Assembly (NCBI RefSeq): GCF_023206215.1
Contig: NZ_CP065800.1
Location: 620,001 to 684,000 of the forward strand
Length of the DNA: 64,000 bases
Direction of reading: 5' to 3'
Origin: Butyrivibrio fibrisolvens
GTDB lineage: Bacteria > Bacillota > Clostridia > Lachnospirales > Lachnospiraceae
Shown: piece by piece, positions 938 through 49,897 of the stretch
Position numbering within the stretch: the stretch's first letter is position 1
Layout of the letters: each line of letters starts with the position of its first letter
The notes under the pieces: model-generated
Database searches by the model: none
Told to the model about the DNA's origin: nothing
What the model saw: only the letters and a program-made list of their open reading frames with translations
Position numbers and translations under genes: made by a program

Positions 938-1468
938 TTAAATCTGTTCATACAGATTGGTTCCCTCTGAGTCTATTACAACTATACAAGGGAAGTTCTC
1001 TACGTGAAGTCTTCTGATGGCTTCTGTTCCAAGATCATCATAGGCTATAACCTCAGATGAAGTTATGGCTTTGGATAGCAGGGCACCAGCTCCGCCTATT
1101 GCAGCAAAATACACAGCTTTATTCCTGACTATGGCATCCTGTACTTCCTTGGTTCTCTTACCCTTGCCTATCATGCCTCTAAGGCCAAGATCAAGAAGTG
1201 AGGGTGCATACTTGTCCATACGGCTTGCTGTTGTAGGACCGGCTGATCCTATAGGTCTTCCCGGTCTTGCAGGAGATGGTCCCATGTAATATATTATATT
1301 GCCATCAAGTTCAAAGGGGAGCTTCCCACTTTTTGAAAGAGCCTCTGACATTCTCTTATGAGCCGCATCCCTTGCTGTATATATAGTTCCGGTGATGTAT
1401 ATCATATCCCCGGCTTTTAACTTAGATGTATCCTCTTTGGTCAAAGGAGCATTAATATGGTATTCCAT
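938..1468 (-). CDS. fumB: Fumarate hydratase class I, beta subunit
   Basis: This 176-residue protein is the C-terminal half of the iron-sulfur fumarase, split into two subunits as is common in anaerobes. It acts with the alpha subunit (1575-2417) to interconvert fumarate and malate in the cytoplasm. The glycine- and proline-rich segment near residues 62-80 (GPSPARPGRPIGSAGPTT) is typical of the beta subunit. The start is ATG at 1468. Its Shine-Dalgarno GAGG (1476-1479) is supplied by a repeat element (1472-1574) inserted between the two subunit genes, so the partners may not be translated equally. A tartrate dehydratase with the same subunit plan cannot be excluded by sequence alone; fumarase is the more likely reading. 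Confidence 0.9.
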   Translation of the reverse strand: MEYHINAPLTKEDTSKLKAGDMIYITGTIYTARDAAHKRMSEALSKSGKLPFELDGNIIYYMGPSPARPGRPIGSAGPTTASRMDKYAPSLLDLGLRGMIGKGKRTKEVQDAIVRNKAVYFAAIGGAGALLSKAITSSEVIAYDDLGTEAIRRLHVENFPCIVVIDSEGTNLYEQI

Positions 1469-1471
1469 TTT

Positions 1472-1574
1472 TTAACCTCATGTCGCGAGCAAAGCGAGTG
1501 ACTAATGGTTCAAATTGGTGGAGCTCGCGACACCAATTTGGGTTTGAAAGTGGAACACTTTCAAACTTAACCTC
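1472..1574 (-). repeat. Interspersed leader repeat, copy A (hairpins, pseudoknot, SD)
   Basis: This 103-bp copy fills the fumA-fumB gap. In minus-strand sense hairpin 1 is 11 bp (1556-1566 with 1542-1552, loop of 3). Hairpin 2 is 10 bp (1531-1540 with 1511-1520). Eight bases of the hairpin-2 loop (TCGCGAGC, 1523-1530) are exactly complementary to GCTCGCGA (1483-1490), which lies four bases before the GAGG Shine-Dalgarno of fumB. GAGGTTAA occurs at both ends of the element. Related copies are at 4632, 6592, 6687, 42979 and, as a fragment, 49808. Confidence 0.9.
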
Positions 1575-2417
1575 TCACAGTGTTCTGCTTATATGTCTGT
1601 TGACATGGCAACAGATGTTAACAGCAACAGGAAGTCCTGCTATATGTGTTGCATAGGTGTTTATATTAACAGCAAGCGCTGTAGTAGATCCGCCCAGTCC
1701 TCCGGGGCCTATACCTGTTGCATTGATACGCTCTAGCATCTCCTCTTCCATATCTTTAATATATGGTATATCCGAATGCTCTCCTGCAGGTCTTGTCAGT
1801 GCCTGCTTGGCCATAATAGCGCATTTTTCAAAGGTACCACCTATTCCTACTCCGACAACCATAGGAGGGCATGCGTTAGGGCCGGCATCCTTTACGGCCT
1901 GAAGTATGGCATTCTTCACTCCCTCTTCTCCGTCAGCAGGTTTGAGCATATAGATCTTGCTCATATTCTCGCTTCCAAAGCCCTTGGGGGCACAGGTGAT
2001 CTCAACTTTGTCACCTGGTACTATCTCAAAATGGATCACGGCAGGAGTATTGTCTTTGGTATTTTCTCTTATAAGAGGATCTCCTACTACTGATTTTCTA
2101 AGATATCCTTCTGTGTATCCTTGTCTTACACCTTCATTGATCGCATCTGTGACACTTCCTCCTACAAGGTGTACTTCCTGTCCGACTTTTATAAATACAA
2201 CGGCCATTCCTGTGTCCTGGCAGATCGGGATCTTGTCAGTGTCAGCTATTTCAAGGTTCTTTTGAAGCTGAGTCAGTATGCTTTTCCCAAGGGGAGATTT
2301 CTCAGAAAGTGCATTATCATCAAGTGCTTTTTTCATATCAGGTGAAAGATGATAATTGGCAGAGATAACCATCTCTTTCACCGCAGTTGTTATATTACTA
2401 ACATCAAGTTCGCGCAT
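1575..2417 (-). CDS. fumA: Fumarate hydratase class I, alpha subunit
   Basis: This 280-residue N-terminal half of class I fumarase carries the [4Fe-4S] cluster. Cysteines fit the cluster-ligand pattern: one in the PICQDTGMAVV motif, one in the PNACPPMVVGVGIGGTFEKC stretch (the last C is another), all in conserved surroundings. I place the start at ATG 2417, where TAGGTGG lies 5 nt upstream, rather than a longer TTG frame at 2435. The gene begins just after the HIT gene stop, so HIT, alpha and beta form one leftward operon. The TGA stop is immediately followed by the repeat at 1472-1574. Confidence 0.93.
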   Translation of the reverse strand: MRELDVSNITTAVKEMVISANYHLSPDMKKALDDNALSEKSPLGKSILTQLQKNLEIADTDKIPICQDTGMAVVFIKVGQEVHLVGGSVTDAINEGVRQGYTEGYLRKSVVGDPLIRENTKDNTPAVIHFEIVPGDKVEITCAPKGFGSENMSKIYMLKPADGEEGVKNAILQAVKDAGPNACPPMVVGVGIGGTFEKCAIMAKQALTRPAGEHSDIPYIKDMEEEMLERINATGIGPGGLGGSTTALAVNINTYATHIAGLPVAVNICCHVNRHISRTL

Positions 2418-2431
2418 ACTACCACCTATTA

Positions 2432-2842
2432 TCAAAACTTAAGCTTTTTGCAGATGTCGCGAAGCTTGTCATCTTCGGGCTGCGTTGGTTTCCATGCTAT
2501 TGTCTGTCCATCGTTAGTAAATCTTGGTATCACATGGAGATGAAAATGCTCTACAGTCTGTCCTGCAGCAGCTCCGTTGTTCTGAACAAGATTGACACCA
2601 TCGCACTCAAGTGTATCTTTAAGTTTTTGAGCTACTTTCTTGGCAAGGATCATAGCTTTGCCAAGTGTTTCATCAGGAGTCTCAAAAACATTGGCGCTGT
2701 GATCTTTAGGGAGAATAAGTGCATGACCAAGGTTTGCAGGACCATTGTCCAGTATCACGTTGAACATATCATCTTCATAGATTGAATTGGTTGGGATATC
2801 CCCATTTGCAAGTTTACAGAAAATACAGTTATCGTTCTTCAT
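2432..2842 (-). CDS. HIT family protein (Hint-like nucleotide hydrolase)
   Basis: This 136-residue histidine triad protein shows the HFHLHV active-site motif near residues 99-104 and an N-terminal CIFCKLANGDIPT segment typical of bacterial Hint proteins. Family members hydrolyse adenosine phosphoramidates or aminoacyl-AMP adducts in the cytoplasm; the substrate here is unknown. The start ATG has AAGGAG five bases upstream. The two early cysteines (CxxC) could bind zinc, as in many Hint proteins. It is followed within a few bases by fumA, suggesting co-transcription. Confidence 0.92.
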   Translation of the reverse strand: MKNDNCIFCKLANGDIPTNSIYEDDMFNVILDNGPANLGHALILPKDHSANVFETPDETLGKAMILAKKVAQKLKDTLECDGVNLVQNNGAAAGQTVEHFHLHVIPRFTNDGQTIAWKPTQPEDDKLRDICKKLKF

Positions 2843-2911
2843 ACGCTCTCCTTTTGGTAGATTGTTTTTATTTTTTCTACATTATCATGTATTATACAGC
2901 TGCGACTTGCA

Positions 2912-3559
2912 TCACAGCTGCATAGGTTTGATCTTACTGCCACGGATAAGGACCAGTGCTGTGCACACGATCATACCCATTATAAGTCCGCCTATATGAG
3001 CAGTGTTGTTAACACCGCCTTCAGTAAAGCCTGAAGCCACCATAAATACTACCACAAAAAGGCCCCTGTAAAGAAGGCTGCCTGCTGGTTTTCCTTCTCT
3101 TGCGGACCTTATTCTTTCATATGCAGTGAGAATGAGCAGAGCCCCGATAAGGCCAAATACTCCTCCACTTGCTCCTATTGAATAGCGCTCTATGTGTTTG
3201 AAATTCTCATAATATACAGATACAAGGTTGCCTCCTATACCGGACATGAGATATATGAGTGCAAAGCCGATATGCCCTACACTTATCTCTATAAGTCCTC
3301 CTATAAAGAACAGCCCTATCATATTAGAAACAATATGGGATATATCTGCGTGGAGAAAGGTTGCAGTTATAAGTCTGTACAGCTGACCGCCATAATATAC
3401 ATTATCTGTGATCAAGGCTCCGCTGTCTGTAAGTTTGTTGCCAAGGATCATCTGACTTACAAAAAACAATACATTAAGAAGTAAAAAAATTATCATAACA
3501 AAGGAAGTAAGATATCTTCCATAAAAATCCCTATACCACTGCTGATCATACTTGGCCAT
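2912..3559 (-). CDS. Rhomboid family intramembrane serine protease
   Basis: This 215-residue integral membrane protein has about six hydrophobic segments. The catalytic serine is in GASGGVFG (about residue 130) and the catalytic histidine in NTAHIGG (about residue 188). The conserved HADISHIVSNM of helix 2 is present. Rhomboids cut single-pass membrane proteins inside the bilayer; the substrate is not indicated here. The start has GAGG upstream. It lies between the fumarase operon and the flavodoxin-SCP2 gene, all leftward, with short gaps. The tail after the last helix is short, with no extra domain. Confidence 0.93.
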   Translation of the reverse strand: MAKYDQQWYRDFYGRYLTSFVMIIFLLLNVLFFVSQMILGNKLTDSGALITDNVYYGGQLYRLITATFLHADISHIVSNMIGLFFIGGLIEISVGHIGFALIYLMSGIGGNLVSVYYENFKHIERYSIGASGGVFGLIGALLILTAYERIRSAREGKPAGSLLYRGLFVVVFMVASGFTEGGVNNTAHIGGLIMGMIVCTALVLIRGSKIKPMQL

Positions 3560-3605
3560 AAAAAACTACTGCAAACCTCACATCCGTTAAATTTCGCGCT
3601 GTCAC

Positions 3606-4610
3606 TTATCCAAAAACAAAAATCTGATCAAGCCCGCGCAAGAGCTTGAAATCGCCTTTCATCTTCATATTACCTGCCATAAATGCTCTCTGGAAGGTCA
3701 TACGTCCTGTAACTATCTCTTCAAGAGAATCCTTGGTCATAGAAAGTGCAACATCTATATCACTTGTTTCAGAAGCTATGACTTGTGTGACAAGACTATC
3801 CCTAATCGTTAAGAGCATGGTCTTCATGCCAGGTCTGTCCGTTACAGTTATAGCATATGTTCCCTGAACTTTATTATCAGGCCTGTAATGCTTTTTGAAT
3901 GTATCTAAATAGTCTTCTGAAGTAGACGTGCGCTCATCATTTTTAAGTTTATCACGAAAAAGAGAAGAAAGCTCCTGAATATCAGCTTTTTGAGTTTGAA
4001 CATATCTGTCATCAGAGACATACTTAGAAAGCTGTTCTGATTCCTGCGGAGTCAGATCGACGCTCTTGGTGAGAGAGACTTTCTGCTTTACTACCTGATT
4101 GCTTGCAGGAAGGGCGGGGATTTTCTGCGAGATAGTCCTATAGAAGTTCTCGGCCTTTTTTTCTATAAGACGTATATAATCCTGATTGCTGTCAAAAAGT
4201 GAAGTATCAGCGATATAGCCGCATACTCCGTCGCAGGGAAGGCCTCCAAGTATCTCCCAGGCCGTCTCAAGGCTGGTCACGCCTTCGCGCTCTCCGTATG
4301 TAGTAGACATGATAACAGGCATCATGTACATGCGTCCTATCTTGTCCTTATCGCCATAAAGCCAGCATGCATCTAAAAATTCCATGAGATATCCGCCGAT
4401 ACCGTACCATTCAACTGTAGAAGACAAAATGATACCATCGGCATCTTTAAGTGTACCAGGAAGTGCTGTTATTGCATTCTTTTGATCGAACAGATTGAAT
4501 CTTTGTACCTCGACATTGAGTTCTTTTAATACATCCGTCATTCTGTTTATCACATACAAAGACGGATCGTCAACAATGCCGCGGCCTCCGTAGTAAATGT
4601 TGATCTTCAT
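3606..4610 (-). CDS. Flavodoxin-like reductase fused to a C-terminal SCP2 domain
   Basis: A 334-residue two-domain protein. Residues 1 to about 160 resemble NAD(P)H-dependent FMN reductase or flavodoxin-like folds (beta strand MKINIYYGGRG, then SSTVEWYGIGGYLMEFLD). Residues about 235-334 resemble an SCP2 sterol-carrier-like domain (ITVTDRPGMKTMLLTIRDS, then MTFQRAFMAGNMKMKGD). A redox or lipid-linked role is an inference; no substrate can be named. A GGAGG Shine-Dalgarno is 12 nt before the ATG. The leader repeat copy B (4632-4735) lies directly upstream, so its GAGG is not the SD closest to this start. Confidence 0.75.
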   Translation of the reverse strand: MKINIYYGGRGIVDDPSLYVINRMTDVLKELNVEVQRFNLFDQKNAITALPGTLKDADGIILSSTVEWYGIGGYLMEFLDACWLYGDKDKIGRMYMMPVIMSTTYGEREGVTSLETAWEILGGLPCDGVCGYIADTSLFDSNQDYIRLIEKKAENFYRTISQKIPALPASNQVVKQKVSLTKSVDLTPQESEQLSKYVSDDRYVQTQKADIQELSSLFRDKLKNDERTSTSEDYLDTFKKHYRPDNKVQGTYAITVTDRPGMKTMLLTIRDSLVTQVIASETSDIDVALSMTKDSLEEIVTGRMTFQRAFMAGNMKMKGDFKLLRGLDQIFVFG

Positions 4611-4631
4611 GGCTTATGTGCTCCTCCATTA

Positions 4632-4735
4632 TTAACCTCATGTCACGAGTAAAGCGAGTGACTAATGGTTCGAATTGGTGAAACTCGTGACACCAATTCG
4701 GGTTTGAAAGTGGAACACTTTCAAACTTTAACCTC
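4632..4735 (-). repeat. Interspersed leader repeat, copy B
   Basis: Same plan as copy A with compensatory changes. The hairpin-2 loop carries TCACGAGT (sense of 4683-4690), complementary to ACTCGTGA (4643-4650); relative to copy A two pairs have changed from G-C or C-G to A-T or T-A on both sides. The outer pair of hairpin 2 has also changed together (CGAATTGGTG at 4671-4680 with CACCAATTCG at 4691-4700). GAGGTTAA again occurs at both ends. The gene start at 4610 is 29 nt from the end of the repeat. Confidence 0.88.
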
Positions 4736-4834
4736 ATGTCCCAACACAACAGGCTGTAGAAAGGGAACGCCAGACAGTACAGAAAAGTACTTCTATTCCC
4801 AAAGACCATAATCATAATTAAGTATAGCACATCC

Positions 4835-5019
4835 GGTACATAGAAATACATCCATGTATTTCTGGACATGTCACGTTACTTCCTGTAACGGTACATAGAA
4901 ATACATCCATGTATTTCTGAGCATGTCACGTTACTTCCTGTAACGGTACATAGAAATACATCCATGTATTTCTGAGCATGTCACGTTACTTCCTGTAACG
5001 GTACATAGAAATACATCCC
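4835..5019. repeat. 55-bp tandem repeat, three full copies plus a partial
   Basis: Units start at 4835, 4890 and 4945, with a 20-bp partial at 5000. Units two and three are identical; the first differs only at GGACATG versus GAGCATG. Each unit has two palindromes: GAAATACATCCATGTATTTC and CGTTACTTCCTGTAACG. The array abuts the stop codon of the FHA gene (5024), so a transcript of that gene would end in a row of hairpins. There are no spacers, so it is not a CRISPR array. Confidence 0.92.
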
Positions 5020-5023
5020 ACCA

Positions 5024-6589
5024 TTATCTATAGTCAAAGACGATATCTGAAAATCTGACTTCATCTCCGGGAACTATTCTTACAGGTTTTTGAGCCTGGA
5101 GTCTGCATCCGTTGTGGTATGTTCCATTGGTAGAGCCAAGGTCTATAAGGAACATGTTGCCGTTTTCTCTAAAAAGGCGCGCATGGATCCTGCTTATGGT
5201 CTTATGGGGTATCACGAAGTCAACACAGCCTTCCATCTTGCCTATTGTAAGAGGGAGCTTGTCGGTGCTTATCTGGATGCAGTTGTTAAGACCTCTACTG
5301 TAAAGGCGTCCCTGTTCCTTGACAGGACTGTCACTTAGGACTGTAGTTCCGGGATCCTTAGGGGCTGATGCATGTGCATATGTATCTGCCTTCCTTGATG
5401 CGAACATCTGGAGATTGGGCATAAGTACAGAGGGCGCTGCAGCTCCAAAAGCCTTCTCATCTGATTTTGCAAAAGCAAGGTTGCCCGGGCCGAATGCACT
5501 AGATTCTCCTTTTTCGCAAGCTCTTCCGAATCCATTTCCGATTTCTTCATCTATATCAAAATCATCGTCTTCATATGACTTTGATCTTCTTTTCTTTTTT
5601 CTATACTCGTTTTTATTGGTCAAAGCAGAGTTTTTCTTTTCTGCTTCTTTTCTCTTCTTCACATGAGAGATCTCTGATCTTATGTTGTCATCGATCTCCT
5701 GCATCTCTAAGGTTTTGCGTTTATGACTTGCATATATAAGAGCGGCAATACCCATAGTAAATGTCACGCCTATAATAGAAAGAGAGATGATATTCTGTCT
5801 TGGAGTAAGAGGATATCGATATCTTATAGCAATACCAAGTAATCCTATTATTATAGAAAGTATTGAAAAGATATAATAACTCTTCATATCATTATCTTTT
5901 GACTTTCCTTTTGATGATGTATCTTCCTCTTCTTTTTCATCAAAATCTTCATAAAAGTCCGGGCTGGGAGTAGCCTGTACAGCACTTCTATCTGCGATAT
6001 GTTCTACAGGCTGCTGCCCTTCTACTTGGCTTACTGTTTCAAGACTCTGTGCCATCTTGTCACGCATCATCCTTGCAATAACAGAGAGGTTGTATCCATT
6101 CTCTTCGACAAGCATGCAGAATTCATATGCTGTATTTACCGCCTTCTCATCGTTATGATCAACTATATCTGTTAGTTCCATGGCAAAAGTTTCGATATCT
6201 TCTCTGTTATCTCCGGGAAGGCACATAAAGCGAAAGCTTCCGCGAGCAAGATCCACCATAACTGTATCCATTGTCATAACAAGACTGTCTTCTTCAAGAA
6301 GGTATTCCGCCATATCTATGCAGGTCTTCTCAAGATCCGTGAAAAAATCCATAAGCTGCGAATAGTTCATTTTCTTACTTGCAAATCTGTCTGCAATACT
6401 CCTAAGGCCGTCAGCTTCATAATATAGAAAGGAATCAGAATTGATGTTTCTAAGGCTGCAGGCCATAAGACCTTTGGTTTTCTGGGCTTCAAGCATCTTA
6501 TACCTGTAATCCCCTGTATCTATATCACCAAGACCAACTACCATGTAATTATGTGACAAGTCTCTTTCATAACGTATATTGTAATTCAT
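5024..6589 (-). CDS. FHA domain protein with DUF6382-like N-terminus
   Basis: A 521-residue protein. The N-terminal ~220 residues (MNYNIRYERDLSHNYMVV onward) resemble DUF6382. A charged linker leads to two membrane segments around residues 240-285, then a Lys/Glu-rich linker. A C-terminal FHA domain has SRIHARLFRENG and DLGSTNGTYHNG, which bind phosphothreonine in this family. It probably signals at the membrane. The start is ATG 6589, with GAGG supplied by the upstream repeat (6592-6694); an in-frame ATG 12 nt earlier lies inside the repeat and has no SD. It follows the Tad pilus operon and may be linked to it, as FHA proteins often are in such loci. Confidence 0.8.
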   Translation of the reverse strand: MNYNIRYERDLSHNYMVVGLGDIDTGDYRYKMLEAQKTKGLMACSLRNINSDSFLYYEADGLRSIADRFASKKMNYSQLMDFFTDLEKTCIDMAEYLLEEDSLVMTMDTVMVDLARGSFRFMCLPGDNREDIETFAMELTDIVDHNDEKAVNTAYEFCMLVEENGYNLSVIARMMRDKMAQSLETVSQVEGQQPVEHIADRSAVQATPSPDFYEDFDEKEEEDTSSKGKSKDNDMKSYYIFSILSIIIGLLGIAIRYRYPLTPRQNIISLSIIGVTFTMGIAALIYASHKRKTLEMQEIDDNIRSEISHVKKRKEAEKKNSALTNKNEYRKKKRRSKSYEDDDFDIDEEIGNGFGRACEKGESSAFGPGNLAFAKSDEKAFGAAAPSVLMPNLQMFASRKADTYAHASAPKDPGTTVLSDSPVKEQGRLYSRGLNNCIQISTDKLPLTIGKMEGCVDFVIPHKTISRIHARLFRENGNMFLIDLGSTNGTYHNGCRLQAQKPVRIVPGDEVRFSDIVFDYR

Positions 6590-6591
6590 TC

Positions 6592-6694
6592 TTAACCTCA
6601 TGTCGCGAGTGAAACGAGTGACTAATGGTTCAAATTGGTGGAGCTCGCGACACCAATTTGGGTTTGAAAGTGGAACACTTTCAAACTTAACCTC
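6592..6694 (-). repeat. Interspersed leader repeat, copy C2 (gene-proximal of a tandem pair)
   Basis: Same plan as copy A. Hairpin 1 and hairpin 2 are identical to copy A. The pseudoknot strand near the SD reads ACTCGCGA (6603-6610) against loop TCGCGAGC (6643-6650), giving seven pairs and one terminal mismatch. GAGG (6596-6599) lies six bases before the ATG of the FHA gene. The far end overlaps copy C1 through a shared GAGGTTAA. Confidence 0.88.
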
Positions 6695-6795
6695 ATGTCG
6701 CGAGTGACTAATGGTTCAAATTGATGGAGCTCGCGTCATCAATTTGAGGAGTTAATTCCTAATTAACTCCCTTGAAAATGGAACATTTTCAAACT
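6687..6795 (-). repeat. Interspersed leader repeat, copy C1 (distal of a tandem pair)
   Basis: A second, diverged copy joined head-to-tail to C2 through GAGGTTAA (6687-6694). Hairpin 1 carries GAAAATG/CATTTTC where copy A has GAAAGTG/CACTTTC, and hairpin 2 carries TTGATG/CATCAA where copy A has TTGGTG/CACCAA; both are compensatory. An extra hairpin, GGAGTTAATT with AATTAACTCC, is inserted between them, as in copy D. CGCGAG of the loop pairs with CTCGCG near the SD. Confidence 0.85.
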
Positions 6796-42978: not shown

Positions 42979-43095
42979 GTTTGAAAATGTTTTATTTTCA
43001 AGGGAGTTAATTAGAAGTTACCTCCTCAAATTGGTGCCGCGAGCTCCACCGATTTGTAACATTAGTCACTTTATTAGCTCGCGACATGAGGTTAA
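42979..43095 (+). repeat. Interspersed leader repeat, copy D
   Basis: The plus-strand copy. Hairpin 1 is TTGAAAATG/TATTTTCAA-like. The extra hairpin seen in C1 is present here in decayed form. Hairpin 2 is AAATTGGTG (43028-43036) with CACCGATTT (43047-43055). CGCGAGCT in the loop (43038-43045) pairs with AGCTCGCG (43076-43083). GAGG (43088-43091) lies six bases before the ATG of the permease gene. Confidence 0.85.
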
Positions 43096-43097
43096 CA

Positions 43098-43973
43098 ATG
43101 GAATTATTAGTAGATGTAATCTTAGATACAGTGATAGACGGAGTTAAGATACTTCCGTTTCTATTTATAACATATCTTCTCATGGAGCTTCTGGAAAGGC
43201 ATACTATGGACAAGGCTGGTGATATTGTAAGAAAAGCCGGAAAGTCCGGTCCCTTATGGGGAGCTGTCCTTGGAGTACTGCCTCAGTGTGGATTCTCAGC
43301 TGCTGCCTCTAACCTATATGCAGGCCGTGTTATAACAGTTGGAACCCTGATCGCCATATACCTTTCTACATCCGATGAGATGCTACCTCTTATGATATCT
43401 GAAAGGGTTCCTGTTACTACAATCCTTCCCATTCTGGGTCTTAAGGCTCTGGTTGGAATCATAGCCGGATTCATTGTGGACTTTGCAGCCAATAAGACTA
43501 GGAAGATCCGCCACCAAGGAAGAGAAGATTTCAGAATAGAAGAGCTCTGCGAGCGTGAACACTGTCACTGCGAAGACGAGGAAGAAGGTAGCATCTTAAA
43601 ATCCGCGTTTGTACATACTGTTCATATCTTCTTATATCTTCTGGTTCTTACTTTTATACTCAATTTCATAGTTGAGCTTATAGGTGAAGAGGCTATTATG
43701 TCAGTAATTACCGCTAATCCTCTGCTGGGACACATCGTAGCAGGCATAATAGGTCTTATCCCTAACTGCGCTGCTTCTATAATCATAACTGAGCTGTACC
43801 TTGGCGGAATGATAACAATGGGAACCATGATGTCAGGATTATTAGTAGGTGCCGGAATTGGACTACTTATCCTGTTCAGAGTCAATCCTGAATTCAAGAG
43901 AAATCTCCATATCACTGGAATTCTCTATGTTACAGGTGTATTCTTCGGAATACTTATTGATCTTATTTTGTAA
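43098..43973 (+). CDS. Putative metal permease, ArsP_2-like (heavy metal exporter type)
   Basis: A 291-residue polytopic membrane protein with two symmetric halves. Each half has a conserved motif: VLPQCGFSAAASNLYAG in the first and GLIPNCAASIIITELYLGG in the second. A central cytoplasmic-type loop is rich in Cys, His and acidic residues (CEREHCHCEDEEE), likely metal-binding. Members are annotated as manganese or arsenic exporters; the substrate is unknown. ATG 43098 uses GAGG of the upstream repeat. The Fur-type gene follows. Confidence 0.75.
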   Translation: MELLVDVILDTVIDGVKILPFLFITYLLMELLERHTMDKAGDIVRKAGKSGPLWGAVLGVLPQCGFSAAASNLYAGRVITVGTLIAIYLSTSDEMLPLMISERVPVTTILPILGLKALVGIIAGFIVDFAANKTRKIRHQGREDFRIEELCEREHCHCEDEEEGSILKSAFVHTVHIFLYLLVLTFILNFIVELIGEEAIMSVITANPLLGHIVAGIIGLIPNCAASIIITELYLGGMITMGTMMSGLLVGAGIGLLILFRVNPEFKRNLHITGILYVTGVFFGILIDLIL

Positions 43974-49807: not shown

Positions 49808-49858
49808 ACATCAATTTGGATTTGAAAGCTGAACACTTTCAAACTTAACCTCATGTCA
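49808..49858 (-). repeat. Fragment of the leader repeat, copy E
   Basis: Only the 5' part of the family is present: the GACATGAGGTTAA end (49844-49856 on the minus strand) followed by hairpin 1 (GTTTGAAAGTG, TTCAG, CTTTCAAAT) and a remnant of hairpin 2. The pseudoknot and 3' SD end are missing. It faces away from the rightward gene that follows, and so supplies that gene with no SD. Confidence 0.7.
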
Positions 49859-49897
49859 CAACTTAACTACCACGCGAAGGAAAGGCATCAGTCTATC

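Follow-up and report, generated by a model that had tools for sequence, protein, structure and literature searches.

The 64,000-nucleotide stretch of Butyrivibrio fibrisolvens DNA analyzed here (the window; contig NZ_CP065800.1, positions 620,001 to 684,000) carries several copies of a small repeated element that stand ahead of genes with no common function. Copy A, a complete element of 95 nt on the reverse strand (1472–1566), occupies the gap between fumA (1575–2435) and fumB (938–1468, reverse strand), the gene downstream of it, which encodes the fumarase C-terminal subunit (PF05683). It is matched by the covariance model described below, and the orthologous site in a related genome is empty. 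Read 5′ to 3′, the element begins with hairpin 1 (GTTTGAAAGTG-ttc-CACTTTCAAAC; 1542–1566 in copy A), the part that is common to all subtypes, followed by CC, hairpin 2 or S1 (AAATTGGTG-[TCGCGAGCTC]-CACCAATTT; 1511–1540), in which the support from paired changes is strongest, and a G. The remainder consists of AACCATTAGTCACTCGCTTT, the segment GCTCGCGA (1483–1490), which pairs with TCGCGAGC in the loop of hairpin 2 (1523–1530) as the pseudoknot helix S2, and CATGAGGTTAA. The right end, typically ...GAGGTTAA directly 5′ of an ATG (1472–1479 in copy A), is at once the boundary of the element and a replacement Shine-Dalgarno (SD) sequence.

Copy B (4632–4726, reverse strand) is also complete, with S2 strands TCACGAGT/ACTCGTGA; it is followed by taATG, a stretch that overlaps the real SD of the gene at 3606–4610. 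A tandem pair precedes the FHA/DUF6382 gene (5024–6589, reverse strand): copy C (6592–6686), the complete 3′ partner, and copy D (6687–6794), the more diverged 5′ partner, both on the reverse strand. The interval 1472–6795 therefore holds several separate insertions and not a single element. On the forward strand, a copy of 117 nt (42979–43095) lies ahead of an ArsP_2-like permease gene (43098–43973). An extra hairpin, GGGAGTTAATTAG...CTCC, stands between hairpins 1 and 2 in this copy and in copy D, and a similar insert was seen at locus L152 and perhaps at L113. Finally, a fragment on the reverse strand (~49808–49859) has the right-end remnant GTGACATGAGGTTAA, then hairpin 1 and the beginning of hairpin 2; it is absent from the 141 covariance-model matches. 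The five full or near-full copies and the fragment listed in the initial annotation are thus all present and are members of one repeat, whose recurrence in the genome is not due to chance. The same annotation took the SD of the repeat to be the best one for the next gene in at least three copies. This holds ahead of fumB, the FHA gene and the permease gene; it fails for copy B, because the gene at 3606–4610 has its own GGAGGAG further downstream.

Copy Number and Position Relative to Genes

With copy A as the BLAST query, at least 49 matches were found in the two-contig genome (best 40 of 144 candidates scored). A search by covariance model, as had been proposed, used a model built from 29 copies of this genome and a cut-off of E ≤ 0.01; it gave at least 141 matches, the 29 included (best 150 of 2165 candidates scored). 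Six of these were counted as duplicates because a set of matches on contig C2 recurs ~306.5 kb away, which leaves 135 distinct copies, 114 on contig C1 and 21 on C2. The two sets lie at C2 8064–28487 and 314580–334994, with small differences in the second, and C2 has the appearance of a circular replicon of ~306.5 kb whose terminal overlap was left untrimmed and is of lower quality. Identical copies form groups of 6, 6, 4 and 3. At the other extreme, diverged copies (ranks 109, 122, 124 and 126–133) often retain only the right ~40 nt, their left part being replaced by unrelated sequence, sometimes a hairpin.

Position was counted over the 124 distinct copies that have no other copy behind them. 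An ATG follows at offset 1–3 in 90 of these, and an open reading frame (ORF) begins within 4 nt in 64 (at least 50 codons) or 63 (at least 80 codons), so a predominance of copies remote from start codons, which would have spoken against the proposal, is not seen. Of the 102 copies whose left end is intact (duplicates included), 78 have AA at the end of the left flank; at −10 to −6 the flank is rich in purines. In 304 kb of the genome, AA-N1-3-ATG occurs at 101 called gene starts, at 363 other intergenic sites and 2355 times inside genes; with 64 insertions at gene starts versus 29 at other ATGs, gene starts are ~8-fold enriched relative to the motif. An SD-like tetramer occurs in the left flank of 33 of the 64 gene-start copies and 5 of the 29 copies whose ATG opens no 50-codon ORF, tandem copies being left out; a visible displaced SD is therefore far from universal. 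Among 30 cases with short ORFs, some resemble terminator or 3′-end sites, one involves a gene cut short after 40 codons, and in another (rank 34) the element precedes the real SD of a gene. At locus L165 (C1:3977878), the element is followed by the short ORF MINKATAL, then by a stretch resembling a terminator and a gene that by eye is aspartase-like, a possible leader-peptide attenuator.

Insertion at Orthologous Sites and Order of Tandem Copies

The joined flanks of three loci were searched in 40 genomes of the genus, and the closest relative found was the genome designated G435, with an identity of up to 83%. There the hisH–hisF junction is uninterrupted, reading GGAGGTATAAAGATG (GGAGGTATAA-AGATG), as against GGAGGTATAA-[95 bp]-AAATG in B. 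fibrisolvens, with neither duplication nor loss of the target. The fumA–fumB site in G435 is empty to within 1 nt. One insertion is common to both species (C1:189145 and G435:585539). In three G435 copies (L356, L381, L383), the left flank is GAGGTTATGA, i.e., the insertion is at or beyond an ATG. For another subtype of the element, subtype C, the joined flanks of six loci of [Clostridium] aminophilum KH1P1 all align through the junction in strain DSM 10710, where no gap as long as the element interrupts them. When these loci were realigned with the element in place, the gap was clean within a few bases in two of the six (L231 and L238) and less clean in L206, L220, L227 and L230.

Tandem copies have GAGGTTAA in common, and the copy proximal to the ATG (3′) is closer to the consensus in 10 of 11 distinct pairs (one-sided sign test, ~0.006), a comparison in which several 5′ members score lower because they are truncated. 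The 135 distinct copies, the empty orthologous sites, the tandem insertions and the patchy distribution described below bear out the mobility that had been proposed for the repeat. Very probably, then, the copies belong to a family of small mobile elements of Lachnospiraceae, non-autonomous and mostly ~75–120 bp long in the copies seen, that target translation-initiation sites and replace the Shine-Dalgarno sequence that they displace.

Hairpins and Pseudoknot

Paired changes were tested in 25 distinct copies of the genome in a fixed alignment against 500 shuffles. The proportion of paired cells was 98.8% in hairpin 1, 99.6% in hairpin 2 and 87.9% in S2. Six pairs had changed on both sides (shuffled mean 2.6; as many in 1 of 500 shuffles), and the covariation score was 0.114 versus 0.071 in shuffles, a value reached in none of the 500. 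Further pair types were not elevated (15 versus 15.3 in shuffles; 400 of 500). An alignment of 48 rows, in which part of hairpin 2 is misplaced in the G435 rows, was kept out of these counts. Over 88 copies of the genome, with the best window chosen per copy, a procedure that favors the true partner and this helix, hairpin 2 gave 769 pairs, and 2000 shuffles gave at most 669. S2 gave 562 pairs against a shuffled maximum of 558, and in fixed windows 14 of the 88 copies had four or fewer of eight pairs. Hairpin 2 covaries clearly; S2 does so less, and the conserved pseudoknot is supported, but weakly within the genome, being kept less well than hairpin 2.

By eye, the complementarity of S2 is kept with other letters in other genomes with subtype A, the subtype of the layout given above, and subtype B has an equivalent (GGCAGGC/GCCTGC). 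Several G435 copies are without it, and no pseudoknot was seen by eye in subtypes C and D. Nested folding of copy A favors a long S2 stem over hairpin 2, so that the two pairings may replace each other or combine in a pseudoknot. Rfam gave no match at the gathering threshold in the window and none over the element at six loci representing subtypes A–D up to E = 3.

Effect on Host Genes

Family searches covered 18 proteins, three of which had no family match. Sixteen are encoded downstream of an element, one is the product of fumA upstream of copy A, and one comes from a doubtful ORF that overlaps copy B. The families found were the fumarase C-terminal part, FHA/DUF6382, ArsP_2, His_biosynth, DapB, Dus, the DHODB Fe-S domain, ABC permease, glycerol-3-phosphate dehydrogenase, ATP-grasp, Fer4_12, glycosyltransferase, FliS, GHKL and fumA. 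The genes downstream of the element are functionally unrelated, and a ligand riboswitch is therefore unlikely, as the initial annotation had argued. Its further suggestion of a translation module fared less well. In nested folding, which leaves out pseudoknots, the predicted openness from SD to ATG averaged 0.41 with the element and 0.46 with the flanks joined, and was higher with the element at just 16 of 46 loci; a benefit to translation is therefore not predicted. The element supplies an SD yet, by predicted openness, leaves the site no better. A unit of ~60 bp (GGTACATAGAAATACATCCATGTATTTCTG...) forms a tandem array at ~4830–5020, downstream of the FHA gene.

These results bear on an alternative in which the repeat is a domesticated cis-regulatory RNA by which the host controls translation, either through a trans factor that reads it or through alternative folding of S1 and S2. 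The paired changes directly 5′ of the SD, the two mutually exclusive folds and an SD that is predicted to be mostly paired (mean unpaired 0.30) would agree with such a role. Against it stand the unrelated functions of the downstream genes, the many copies that precede no gene, the tandem and decayed copies, and the two of three orthologous sites checked that are empty in G435; we regard this alternative as improbable.

Subtypes and Distribution

The covariance model matched 4 of 250 genomes of the family, including that of B. fibrisolvens, and 1 of 40 genomes of the genus in a draw without G435. A pattern for hairpin 1 was found in 8 of 397 family genomes, again including its own, and the reversed-pattern control in one. 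Across 48 genomes of the genus, there were 81 matches in the B. fibrisolvens genome, 32 in G435, a single one without element context in G274, and none in the other 45. A scan of named genomes gave at least 120 stretches, mostly titled Lachnospiraceae or its genera; among those listed, a few were titled only Clostridia, Clostridiales, Eubacteriales or bacterium, and one, from Oscillospiraceae, was seemingly unrelated. On a B. fibrisolvens plasmid, subtype A occurs at three places, and the one viewed ends 2 nt 5′ of an annotated gene; the plasmid search gave no match to subtype C. Viral contigs were considered as carriers and rejected, the five stretches matched being all one unrelated sequence.

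Hairpin 1 is the constant part across subtypes, whereas the right ends vary (GAGGTTAA, GGAGGACAA, AGGGGTATAA or AAGGTACAA according to subtype) and yet look like an SD that runs into AA or similar letters. In a fifth form (L190, L201, L242, L267), the right part is longer. By script, 97 elements among the listed stretches were typed by right end, 94 of them under 110 nt. Among these shorter elements, an ATG lies within ~8 nt in 1 of 1 of subtype A, 12 of 12 of B, 44 of 59 of C and 16 of 22 of D, and AA closes the left flank in 1 of 1, 11 of 12, 57 of 59 and 18 of 22, respectively, in a typing where at least three members of class D belong to subtype B on inspection by eye and some loci represent a single insertion present in two strains. 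A further 31 instances of hairpin 1 without a typed end are mostly element-like by eye; at least L247, L249, L273 and L274 are not.

Candidate Mobilizing Enzymes

Three candidate enzymes, the Y1 transposase, the IS110 transposase and a reverse transcriptase, were each absent from over half of the carriers tested. Their absence is not proof, because draft genomes can miss repeated copies of insertion sequences (IS). Y1_Tnp (PF01797) has three matches in the B. fibrisolvens genome and is present in two of seven other carriers (E ≤ 0.001). The IS110 domain PF02371 has eight matches in this genome, and two of eight carriers, this one included, possess it. RVT_1 is present in four of nine carriers and was found neither in B. 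fibrisolvens nor in G080, G142, G042 and G396. Neither an IS110 transposase nor a reverse transcriptase is supported as a mobilizer common to the carriers. Three loci considered as autonomous elements (L114, L176, L177) show no transposase-like insert and look like truncated copies.

Elements of the IS200/IS605 family and their miniature inverted-repeat transposable elements (MITEs) have hairpins, insert without target duplication and are orientation specific, and in these respects they are like the present element. As a MITE of this type, the element would be read at its hairpins as single-stranded DNA by a Y1 HUH transposase acting in trans and inserted 3′ of a short target without duplication. 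The strict orientation, the lack of target duplication, the hairpins, a left target that is like the right end and the three Y1_Tnp matches in the genome all fit. However, five of the seven other carriers are without PF01797, with the reservation on drafts just given, and the Y1 loci of the genome (L031–L033) showed no convincing match to the element ends when up to three mismatches were allowed. IS608 and ISDra2 are described as targeting the lagging-strand template (PMC6006769); no bias of replication strand was found for the present element, 81 of 114 elements being in leading orientation compared with 134 of 175 genes, where the genes came from 20 spread stretches and origin and terminus were fitted to those same genes. 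The preference for an ATG on the right is a further difference; it is not known as a feature of the IS200/IS605 family, and this counts against such an origin, which we consider unlikely.

Insertion of IS110 family members takes place at a motif involving both sides, as it appears to here. An IS110/IS1111-type recombinase with a bridge-like RNA, the core AA being common to target and donor junction, would account for the apparent importance of both target sides; the geometry of the junction would fit, and eight PF02371 matches are at hand in the genome. Since six of eight carriers are without this domain, the explanation is very improbable. Spread as a retro-mobile RNA through a reverse transcriptase of the group II intron type is, if anything, less probable still. 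Insertion at the RNA level would explain the sense orientation and the location at translation starts, and the absence of a strand bias beyond that of genes would agree with it. Yet no RVT_1 was found in the two-contig genome despite its groups of identical copies, nor in the four other carriers named above.

Relation to Known Repeats

REP and REPIN sequences (repetitive extragenic palindromes; PMC2817692, PMC3116915), with their RAYT (TnpA-REP) transposases, resemble the present element in being small, palindromic, high-copy and non-autonomous, and are thought to be mobilized in trans. In contrast to them, the present element inserts directionally at SD|ATG and brings a new SD. RAYT was also considered as the mobilizer and rejected: the RAYT-like genes L182 and L185 (in G080 and G331) are not flanked by the palindrome of the present element and, by eye, adjoin a different, GGGACGGGG-type repeat. 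A repeat similar to this type follows an element at L109 in B. fibrisolvens.

The BOX, RUP and SPRITE repeats of pneumococcus are likewise small, interspersed and structured, and have been judged parasitic; the same account gives terminal inverted repeats and target duplications as features of MITEs (PMC3049150). The present element has neither, its left end being GTTTGAAAG and its right end GAGGTTAA, and targeting of SD sequences does not figure in the parts of the pneumococcal description consulted (PMC3049150). The TAACTGA direct repeats of Beggiatoaceae differ in forming heptamer arrays of little SD character, and the portion of that report consulted suggests horizontal spread without a mechanism (PMC4679880). 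No description of elements aimed at SD sequences or start codons was found in the open-access literature searched. In the tests made here, the element does not fit classical MITEs, IS200/IS605 derivatives, REP/RAYT, IS110 or retroelements and is therefore filed as a small non-autonomous mobile repeat.

Proposed Mode of Insertion

The element enters in one orientation at ...(SD)nnnAA | n(1–3)ATG, mainly between the SD and the start codon. An enzyme acting in trans may recognize two parts, hairpin 1 and the right end, which it would join to the AA|nnATG target, and hairpin 2 with S2 may serve recognition by that enzyme. Because the right end is similar to the target's left half, the SD would be restored at about normal spacing and at low cost to the host; the junction would also become a fresh target, so that the next copy would enter 3′ of the older one.

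Several observations weigh against the reading as a mobile element aimed at translation starts. About a quarter of the copies (29 of 124) have an ATG within 3 nt that opens no ORF of 50 codons, and about another quarter (31 of 124) have no ATG within 3 nt. The ~8-fold enrichment at gene starts may combine targeting with selection against insertions elsewhere, and its background comes from a simple, crude gene caller. Subtype C copies in RUG12161 and RGIG2452 stand in a number of cases ahead of ATTACG or similar and not ATG, often just 3′ of a stop codon; the target would therefore be a DNA motif rather than a working ribosome-binding site as such. The dapA–dapB locus has no clean empty site in G435. 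The order of tandem copies is opposite in the pair C2:272009/272104 and in the low-quality duplicate of the pair 28302/28393, which was excluded from the count. Neither an autonomous copy nor a mobilizing enzyme was found in searches of carriers for Y1, the IS110 transposase and reverse transcriptase, and the hairpin-1 instances viewed among the matches listed include no autonomous relative with the same ends.

A new class of element is conceivable, an idea that we put forward tentatively and with somewhat less than even confidence. Its integration system would read SD, AA and ATG, and its enzyme would come from a protein family so far without a known link to transposition, or be encoded elsewhere; the right ends of the subtypes would each mimic an SD, and ribosome-binding sites of the host would be replaced over time.

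Mobile elements usually settle where they do little harm. The element described here hits a highly sensitive site of the gene and pays with the part that it displaces, so that the joint evolution of an element and a gene-expression signal becomes open to testing. It points to a further mobilizing enzyme, and its ends and target could serve as a tool for placing sequences directly 5′ of start codons. For B. fibrisolvens itself, it illustrates how copies of one sequence can take the place of dozens of ribosome-binding sites within a genome.

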